Positions 50,397 through 51,743 of a DNA stretch of 64,000 nt are shown here, piece by piece. Origin of the DNA: Accumulibacter sp. (GTDB lineage: Bacteria > Pseudomonadota > Gammaproteobacteria > Burkholderiales > Rhodocyclaceae); NCBI RefSeq assembly GCF_023806625.1, contig NZ_JAMTDX010000093.1, forward strand, positions 1 to 64,000, in the 5' to 3' direction. Each line of letters opens with the position of its first letter. Position 1 is the first letter of the stretch. The position numbers were made by a program, and so were the translations under genes. The notes under the pieces were generated by a model that saw only the letters and a program-made list of their open reading frames with translations, ran no database searches and had not been told where the DNA came from.

Positions 50397-50720
50397 GTGG
50401 AAACCAAGGGTATTGACCAGATGCTCAACGTCTTGCGGGCGACCTCCACGGCAGCCGCCAACCGTTCACCCGAGGGTTCGGCCGTCCCCGGAACGGCGGT
50501 CGACTTCGCTCAGGTTCTGCAGACGTCGATCGACCGCGTCAGCCAGACGCAGGAACAGGCGGAAGCGCTGGCGGCAAGTTTTGCCGCCGGCAACTCGGGT
50601 GAGAACCTGCACGAGGTAATGATCGCCCTGCAGAAGGCCAACCTCTCTTTCCAGGAGATGATCCAGGTCCGCAACAAGTTGGTCTCGGCCTATCACGACG
50701 TGATGAACATGCAGGTCTGA
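50397..50720 (+). CDS. fliE: FliE, MS-ring/rod adaptor
   Basis: FliE joins the MS ring to the rod. The 107-residue protein is helical, with the family C-terminal motif LHEVMIALQKANLSFQEMIQVRNKLVSAYHDVMNM (50607-50711). GTG 50397 has GGAGGG seven bases upstream. It is oriented away from fliF, which usually follows it, so fliE and the fliF series have separate promoters here. Confidence 0.96.
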   Translation: METKGIDQMLNVLRATSTAAANRSPEGSAVPGTAVDFAQVLQTSIDRVSQTQEQAEALAASFAAGNSGENLHEVMIALQKANLSFQEMIQVRNKLVSAYHDVMNMQV

Positions 50721-50744
50721 CCGAGCCGGGCGGTCTGCAGGGTC

Positions 50745-50773
50745 TTGAACTCGTCCGCTTCTGGCCCCATAAT
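50745..50773 (+). promoter_or_regulatory. Sigma-70 promoter of the tmRNA gene
   Basis: TTGAAC (50745-50750) and CATAAT (50768-50773) are separated by 17 bases. Four of six bases match at -35 and five of six at -10. The predicted start is near 50780, just before the acceptor piece of the tmRNA. Confidence 0.65.
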
Positions 50774-50779
50774 ACTGAA

Positions 50780-51010
50780 CATGGTCGTAATCCCGGCGAA
50801 CCGGAGGCATTCTGGACGCGGGTTCGATTCCCGCCACCTCCACCACTACGGGGGTGTACTGGCTTCGACAGGGTGAAGCAAGGCAAGCAGGCGACCCGAG
50901 AGGCGACGGACGTAATCCGCGCAAATCAATAAACGCCAACGATGAGCGTTTCGCACTGGCCGCTTGAGGCCTGCTGAGGACATAGCCTTCCGATAAACAG
51001 AATGGCTATC
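50780..51010 (+). ncRNA. ssrA: Circularly permuted (two-piece) tmRNA
   Basis: tmRNA rescues stalled ribosomes and adds a degradation tag. Here the 3' part comes first. The T arm is GCGGG (50818-50822), loop TTCGATT, CCCGC (50830-50834). The acceptor 3' strand CACCTCC (50835-50841) leads to A and an encoded CCA (50843-50845). Only four bases later the mature 5' strand GGGGGTG (50850-50856) begins, pairing fully with the acceptor 3' strand, followed by the tmRNA-type TGGCTTCGACAGGG. The tag frame reads ANDERFALAA and stop from 50935 to 50967. A stem ATAGCC/GGCTAT (50982-51009) precedes the terminator. Both outer ends are approximate. Confidence 0.93.
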
Positions 51011-51039
51011 GACGGGGGCTTCGGCCCCCGTCGCTTTTT
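51011..51039 (+). terminator. Rho-independent terminator of the tmRNA gene
   Basis: A perfect 9-bp stem, GACGGGGGC (51011-51019) with GCCCCCGTC (51024-51032), closes a stable TTCG loop and is followed by GCTTTTT. It directly ends the tmRNA gene. Confidence 0.92.
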
Positions 51040-51090
51040 CTGGTGATCTCGGTGACGAACCGCGCACGGCTCGGGGGGCTGGGCGTTGCC

Positions 51091-51450
51091 CTAATCGTGA
51101 TGTCTGGCGGTTTCGTGACCGCGTTCCTCGCCGAAGCCGGTCAACTGGGACTCGAGTTCGTTGAAGCGGGCTGCGCCCGACTGATTGAGGCGCGAGAGGC
51201 GGCGCATCAGGCGTTGCTGGGCGAAGGTCTCCGAGGGGTCGGGCTTGCCGAGCAGATACTCCGAGCCACGTCGGGTGATCACGACCATCGAGTTCGAATC
51301 CAGGCTGTAGCCGGTCACCGGCGATGTCCGGATGTGTGAAGACGACGGAAAGCGTGGATTGTTGCCGTACACCCGGCCCTCGATGCACACCAGAACCTCA
51401 TTGTCCCGGGTGACGAGTTCGAGCATTTTCCAGTTGTTGAGGATGTTCAT
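51091..51450 (-). CDS. Hypothetical protein, 119 residues
   Basis: I do not recognise this family. The product has no signal peptide or membrane helix. The N-terminal two thirds look like a compact beta-rich domain (MLELVTRDNEVLVCIEGRVYG, then SHIRTSPVTGYSLDSNSMVVI). The last third is Arg/Leu/Gln-rich and helical, ending in a His-rich tip. ATG 51450 has AGGGGC upstream; a longer frame to 51591 has no such support. It is convergent with the tmRNA gene and lies downstream of the phosphotransferase/kinase gene, 293 bases away, with the same orientation. The codon pattern looks coding. Confidence 0.65.
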   Translation of the reverse strand: MNILNNWKMLELVTRDNEVLVCIEGRVYGNNPRFPSSSHIRTSPVTGYSLDSNSMVVITRRGSEYLLGKPDPSETFAQQRLMRRLSRLNQSGAARFNELESQLTGFGEERGHETARHHD

Positions 51451-51743
51451 GGCGCTGCCCCTGTGCTGACGAGACGCGATCCGCGGCATTGTACGCGAGA
51501 TGCGGATGCTGAAGTCGATCTGAGCCCGCACGCGGCGGCGCTGAAAAGGGCCGTCGGTTGCGCGCCACCGGATGGACCCCGAGACTCCCAAAGCAAGAAT
51601 TCTGCCATCTCCTCCGAGAATCGATGACAGACATTAAATCAGACTATTGAATGGGCAACGCAATGCCTCTGGTGTCGCCGCTGTAAAATTTCCCGACAGC
51701 GGCCAATGGCGACGATGGCGGACGCTGTGCGACGCCGTGCGGT
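51451..51743. other. Intergenic region with one hairpin, no gene seen
   Basis: This 293-base gap separates two leftward genes. Its middle (about 51590-51660) is more AT-rich than its surroundings and probably holds the promoter of the 119-residue gene, though I see no clear pair of boxes. Near its right end is the hairpin at 51677-51703. Confidence 0.4.
51677..51703. repeat. Inverted repeat (hairpin) after the phosphotransferase/kinase gene
   Basis: GCCGCTGT (51677-51684) and ACAGCGGC (51696-51703) form a perfect 8-bp stem around an 11-base loop. It sits 41 bases beyond the stop of the leftward gene ending at 51744, where a terminator would be expected. No T run follows the stem; the T run is in the loop, so intrinsic termination is doubtful. 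Confidence 0.45.

Follow-up and report, generated by a model that had tools for sequence, protein, structure and literature searches.

A permuted tmRNA gene with a four-base spacer in Accumulibacter and the two spacer classes of its family

The window analysed here (the whole 64,000-nucleotide stretch of an Accumulibacter contig) holds a permuted ssrA gene in which only four bases separate the encoded CCA tail from the mature 5' end. It is probably a working gene of the betaproteobacterial type and the sole tmRNA gene found in its genome, with RNase P predicted to cut between 50849 and 50850 and to yield a two-piece tmRNA that acts with SmpB. The permuted gene type is long known; the variant part is the spacer architecture. 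The four-base spacer is a compact architecture, unlike the hairpin spacers that most permuted relatives have in this family (Rhodocyclaceae).

An earlier note made from the letters of the window had proposed the permuted order, with the T arm and CCA upstream of the mature 5' end, and had suggested a covariance-model search as a check. Both permuted-tmRNA models match the locus: RF01850 (beta_tmRNA) over the whole model at 50732-51035 with 231.8 bits (threshold 84, E = 1.1e-73), and RF04321 (tmRNA_permuted) at 50783-50967 with 164.4 bits (E = 5e-33). ARAGORN calls a permuted tmRNA (tmRNA*) with the tag ANDERFALAA, placing the coding part at 183-215 within 50753-51058. The other anatomical claims of that note were borne out as well. 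The acceptor strands can form all seven pairs, one of them G-U, and close an eight-base loop (ACCACTAC); the tag frame, with a resume codon and an Ala-Ala end, stops at TGA and is followed by a terminator hairpin with its T run; CTAC is all that lies between CCA and the mature 5' end; and promoter to terminator takes up about 290 bases where some 300 had been estimated. Whether the arm is folded by itself or within 50783-51030, the minimum-energy structure contains it, and single-example folding of the arm leaves the eight-base loop open. The folding energies are unremarkable (z = -1.66 for the arm alone; z = -1.84 for 50783-51030, for which the whole-transcript fold was dropped as weak evidence), and because they are so, the case rests on homology. 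On this footing, a permuted gene that would give rise to a two-piece tmRNA in Accumulibacter is well supported. The features are collected in Table 1.

Table 1. Features of the permuted tmRNA locus and its upstream neighbor, in window coordinates.
Feature	Positions	Strand	Basis
fliE, upstream of the tmRNA gene and adjoining it	50397-50720		PF02049, 106 bits
Sigma-70-like promoter, TTGAAC-17-CATAAT	50745-50773	+	consensus scan
Acceptor piece, approximate transcript start to encoded CCA	50780-50845	+	RF01850/RF04321 alignments
Acceptor 3' strand, CACCTCC	50835-50841	+	sequence, fold
Encoded CCA tail	50843-50845	+	sequence
Spacer CTAC, 4 bases, segment to be removed	50846-50849	+	sequence
Mature 5' end and acceptor 5' strand, GGGGGTG	50850-50856	+	sequence, RF04321 alignment
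Coding (mRNA-like) piece, to terminator hairpin	50850-51009	+	RF01850 alignment
Tag frame ANDERFALAA and stop TGA	50935-50967	+	ARAGORN
Intrinsic terminator, hairpin 51010-51033 and T run	51010-51039	+	terminator scan

The promoter was the one sigma-70-like site found by the consensus scan against 0.1 expected from shuffles, and most of the short-spacer relatives listed have a CATAAT-like box upstream at an equal distance. The transcript start near 50780 is inferred from the -10 box. In the RF01850 and RF04321 alignments the acceptor piece contains the T arm and the acceptor 3' strand, after which the sequence reads A as the discriminator at 50842. The hairpin at 51010-51033 corresponds to the last hairpin in the RF01850 alignment. 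Downstream, a convergent frame on the minus strand (51091-51591) is without a Pfam match. A minus-strand open frame of 157 aa (50466-50939), antisense to fliE and the tmRNA gene, is likely spurious.

The earlier note had named a normal-order ssrA elsewhere in the genome, with this locus silent, as a finding that would contradict it. A genome-wide search with the standard tmRNA model RF00023 produced six matches, all under the cut-off, the best of which (35.4 bits) overlaps the permuted locus itself; of the remaining five, four coincide with ordinary tRNA genes called by ARAGORN. RF01850 has a single match in the genome, which is this locus. The genome also has a gene for SmpB (PF01668, 191.3 bits) and encodes RNase P RNA of the A type (312 bits).

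The likeness to RF01850 covers gene order, acceptor pairing, tag and terminal hairpin in a full-length match. In the spacer stretch, the RF01850 consensus has 29 positions and the window five. The spacer of the model is of the hairpin class, whereas the window has 4 nt and an encoded CCA; the spacer is a variable part, and its length does not decide membership. The alphaproteobacterial and cyanobacterial types (RF01849 and RF01851) have the permuted principle in common and short spacers also occur there, as in three cyanobacterial loci with 5 nt; however, the clan match reported for the window is RF01850, and the permuted genes sampled outside its class (described below) mostly encode CCA despite long spacers. 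The standard one-piece tmRNA (RF00023) is alike in function, as judged by homology, and differs in the order of its parts.

The earlier note had singled out the spacer as very short, and a family survey places it in one of two spacer classes. Of 297 Rhodocyclaceae genomes sampled, 115 have an RF04321 match over cut-off. All but one of these 115 loci were fetched; the one omitted (G366) matches only in part, at 49 bits, and its genome carries a standard gene scoring 213 bits. Spacers were measured in 113 genes. The short class comprises 33 of these (32 of 4 nt and one of 6 nt) and the long class the other 80 (20-48 nt), with none between 6 and 20 nt. The locus excluded from measurement (L145 in G322, 496-756) is a permuted tmRNA-like element without T arm and acceptor 3' strand that retains the spacer hairpin and the coding piece, from either a deletion or an assembly fault. 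An apparent deletion in G501 (a 161-base match) was found to be a contig end; the spacer there is 4 nt.

The two classes differ in more than length. CCA is encoded in all 33 short genes and in 7 of the 80 long ones (Fisher 5e-22, related genomes not being independent). Base pairs between A73-C74-C75 and positions -1 to -3 occur in 65 of the 80 long genes and in none of the 33 short ones, so that in those 65 the acceptor stem continues into the spacer hairpin. Folding of two long-spacer genes (L008 and L009) produced continuous hairpins with z-scores of -3.6 and -4.5. All 12 sampled Accumulibacter genomes have the short, four-base layout while the spacer letters vary, which argues that the layout is maintained and is not a private error of one genome.

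From the computed anatomy, homology, sole copy and SmpB and RNase P RNA genes, we infer transcription, the cut, its enzyme, the order of steps and function. A single transcript would begin just downstream of the CATAAT box and stop at the 51010-51033 terminator. Its acceptor stem would fold across the eight-base loop made up of ACCA and the four-base spacer, and the whole spacer may act as the RNase P leader. A single cut at 50849/50850 would then both split the molecule in two and free the coding piece at its 5' end, and exonucleases would remove CUAC from the acceptor piece back to the encoded CCA end. The two pieces are predicted to stay paired as tmRNA, with SmpB binding and alanine charging as for any tmRNA.

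According to an in vitro study of bacterial RNase P (PMC9433436), leader bases paired with the tail slow the enzyme, contacts beyond -4 matter little, and C at -4 is modestly favored. The pairing and -4 results suggest that an unpaired 4-nt leader with an encoded CCA is a plausible substrate. C is found at -4 in 33 of 33 short and 12 of 80 long family genes. The window leader, A(-2)C(-1), belongs to the best class in the E. coli assay of that study, whose best dinucleotides are found in 5 of 33 short genes and whose favored U(-1) in one of 33. The slowest-class leader of that assay, G(-2)G(-1), occurs in 16 of 33 short genes, and the GU leader of 65 of 80 long genes is also slow. With GG in 16 and U(-1) in one of the 33, leader tuning in general is disfavored. 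Four sources together gave 32 distinct spacers no longer than 13 nt (the 3-nt spacer of L148 left out), and 31 of them have a purine at -2; such a purine is also present in 77 of 80 long family genes and, being common to them, was dropped as a mark of the short class.

The proposed first step can be set against two other accounts of the same locus. It is unlikely, but deserves some weight, that the two-piece tmRNA is a working one but that a different nuclease, such as RNase Z/BN, RNase E or RNase III, makes the initial cut and RNase P comes in later or never. The CCA encoded by all 33 short genes suits tail recognition by RNase P, and an encoded CCA disfavors RNase Z. A closed loop may hinder RNase P, and by the assay of PMC9433436 the E. 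coli enzyme is slow on the leaders found in half of the short-spacer relatives, whereas RNase P is the enzyme that makes the standard tmRNA 5' end (PMC3985003). The other account, which we regard as highly improbable, is that of a degenerate gene, with a spacer so short that it escapes cutting and leaves an inactive RNA with a closed acceptor end. The presence of a standard tmRNA over cut-off in two of 34 permuted-gene genomes tested in the family (G311 and G416) could be taken in its favor; nevertheless, the gene has an intact acceptor, T arm, tag frame and terminator, both models score high, the layout is kept in all 12 Accumulibacter genomes and no other tmRNA was found here. A working gene first cut by RNase P is the preferred reading of the locus.

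Short spacers are also found outside the family. When 84,980 species genomes were scanned for spacers up to about 13 nt long, 41 loci were returned; the scan's pattern is blind to most alphaproteobacterial-type genes, in which the T loop differs, and the yield is uninformative on them. One locus, L181 on a contig labelled Hydrogenophaga, is a false positive with 5 of 7 pairs and the normal order. This normal-order tmRNA-like element (about 1.7-2.1 kb) has no evident tag frame and lies within a row of 17 tRNA genes called by ARAGORN, as in phage. The other 40 spacers measure 3 nt (1), 4 nt (33), 5 nt (5) and 6 nt (1). Most of the titles are Accumulibacter, Rhodocyclaceae, Azonexaceae, Dechloromonas or unclassified Betaproteobacteria, and the rest are Ca. 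Synechococcus spongiarum (two loci), Aphanocapsa lilacina, Dyella, Pseudogulbenkiania and one labelled Mycobacteriaceae. The last of these (L186) is a permuted tmRNA of betaproteobacterial type with a 4-nt spacer; as its contig is ascribed to an actinobacterium, misbinning is likely. The two Ca. Synechococcus spongiarum genes have 5-nt spacers and do not encode CCA.

In a same-phylum set outside the class of the window, presumably mostly Alphaproteobacteria, 69 loci were fetched and 66 measured. Three have short spacers (5, 6 and 11 nt) and the others have at least 22 nt, the largest values (115 and 128 nt) perhaps being misread. CCA is encoded in 55 of the 66, though only three spacers are 13 nt or less, and it is encoded in five of five long-spacer genes from other families of the order. 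An encoded CCA as the general partner of short spacers was accordingly discarded, since it holds only in this family.

Viral contigs searched with the pattern used on species genomes gave 34 genes, several of them near-copies of each other, all with seven acceptor pairs and an encoded CCA. Their spacers are 4 nt in 12, 5 nt in 10 and 6-12 nt in 12. Since spacers elsewhere fall in the interval that is empty in the family, the absence of spacers between 6 and 20 nt characterizes the family and is not a law. The Dyella gene (L165) has its spacer and tag in common with a viral contig (L374), and the Dyella copy is thus probably borne by a prophage. Odd tags accompany 5-nt spacers in several permuted genes: GAKPIDANDNVYDQAIAA in L165 and L374, ANFDIYDVQHVA in L168, and a tag of 28 residues in L019, which lies in a genome (G249) that also carries a standard tmRNA. 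These four genes are probably phage- or island-borne. Two-piece tmRNA in phages is already known (PMC9004378). Phages in the annotated collection were dismissed as a source of the window's gene, as 20 records match and none does so over 80% of the query; the four phage records inspected (L391-L394) have permuted genes with long spacers.

The distribution of the short form was compared between a host tree and a tree of the gene itself. For RpoB, 60 genomes were queried, 51 matched and one fragmented gene was dropped, the reading frame being picked by shared 4-mers to one reference; the resulting 50 family genomes comprise 15 short, 29 long and 6 without a permuted gene. On this tree the short form is scattered: it requires 11 changes, compared with a mean of 13.0 in shuffles, and a single clade is rejected. 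The tmRNA tree was built from 109 genes with the spacer removed (250 columns), four of the 113 being omitted as cut by contig ends. It has four changes of spacer class against 25.8 in shuffles, and 25 of the 29 short genes fall in one clade (SH-aLRT 100) that spans genera set apart on the RpoB tree; the four outside it are G311, G320, G328 and G565. The tmRNA data do not reject one clade for all 29 short genes (p = 0.159) and do reject the RpoB clade that holds Accumulibacter (p = 0.0037). Both trees are quick, single-gene trees, and since most genomes are draft, misbinning is possible; it is less likely for the short genes in one-contig genomes (G347, G320 and, from Accumulibacter, G317 and G449). 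As the RpoB tree scatters the spacer forms and the tmRNA tree largely sorts them, gene transfer or replacement is suggested. Transfer of a short gene together with a few separate shortenings would be a fair reading of these sequences.

One-piece genes enter this history as well. Standard tmRNA was found in 38 of 39 family genomes chosen by us from the 182 without a permuted match over cut-off, and seven genera (g4, g5, g7, g159, g175, g181 and g195) contain both one-piece and two-piece ssrA. A standard gene over cut-off accompanies the permuted one in G311, and in G416 of the same genus. An apparent third, G397, was set aside because its 47.2-bit standard match overlaps its own permuted gene. 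The ubiG gene, with the identity of UbiG verified by TIGR01983, is found no more than about 1.5 kb away at 28 of 33 standard loci, compared with 13 of 33 short ones and 21 of 80 long ones, or 34 of the 113 permuted family loci overall. In Accumulibacter it is near none of 12 loci, and fliE is the neighbor in 8 of 12. These neighborhoods are most simply read as an exchange of one-piece and two-piece genes at an old ubiG site, with relocation of the gene in Accumulibacter.

Two wider readings follow. We offer only tentatively, and with more doubt than belief, the proposal that the short spacer marks a second maturation route. In it the spacer would not exceed the leader contact of RNase P, and one RNase P cut in a closed loop would both form the 5' end and split the RNA, with none of the hairpin opening or CCA addition required in most relatives; its gene lineage would have moved between genera of the family, a family that also swaps one-piece and two-piece ssrA at one chromosomal place, and phages carry comparable short-spacer genes. 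A stronger possibility, although still somewhat short of probable, is that separate deletions in many lineages produced the short architecture in place of the spread of one gene lineage. The 11 changes and the rejected single clade on the RpoB tree would fit such deletions, as would the four short genes outside the main tmRNA clade and the short spacers of unrelated bacteria and viral contigs. Separate deletions fit less well with the grouping of 25 of 29 short genes in one strongly supported clade across RpoB-separate genera, with a single clade for all 29 not being rejected, or with rejection of the RpoB clade for Accumulibacter by the tmRNA data.

Permuted tmRNA of this family is already known and modelled; there are 11,946 permuted entries in the part of PMC11915505 available, which contains no discussion of spacer length. 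A literature search for very short permuted-tmRNA spacers found no account; older core papers fell outside its coverage and an earlier notice is possible. Permuted tRNA genes, known from red algae, green algae and Thermofilum pendens, offer a parallel, with acceptor ends joined by an intervening sequence of 1-74 nt. According to PMC3978253, these tRNAs are rejoined into one RNA via a circular intermediate, whereas tmRNA remains in two pieces, and removal of a 1-nt intervening sequence is an open question. With 4-nt loops and 20-48 nt hairpin spacers alternating among relatives, the family provides matched natural substrates for the question of excision. If the transfer reading is true, a core RNA gene would have been repeatedly replaced by a differently built version of itself.
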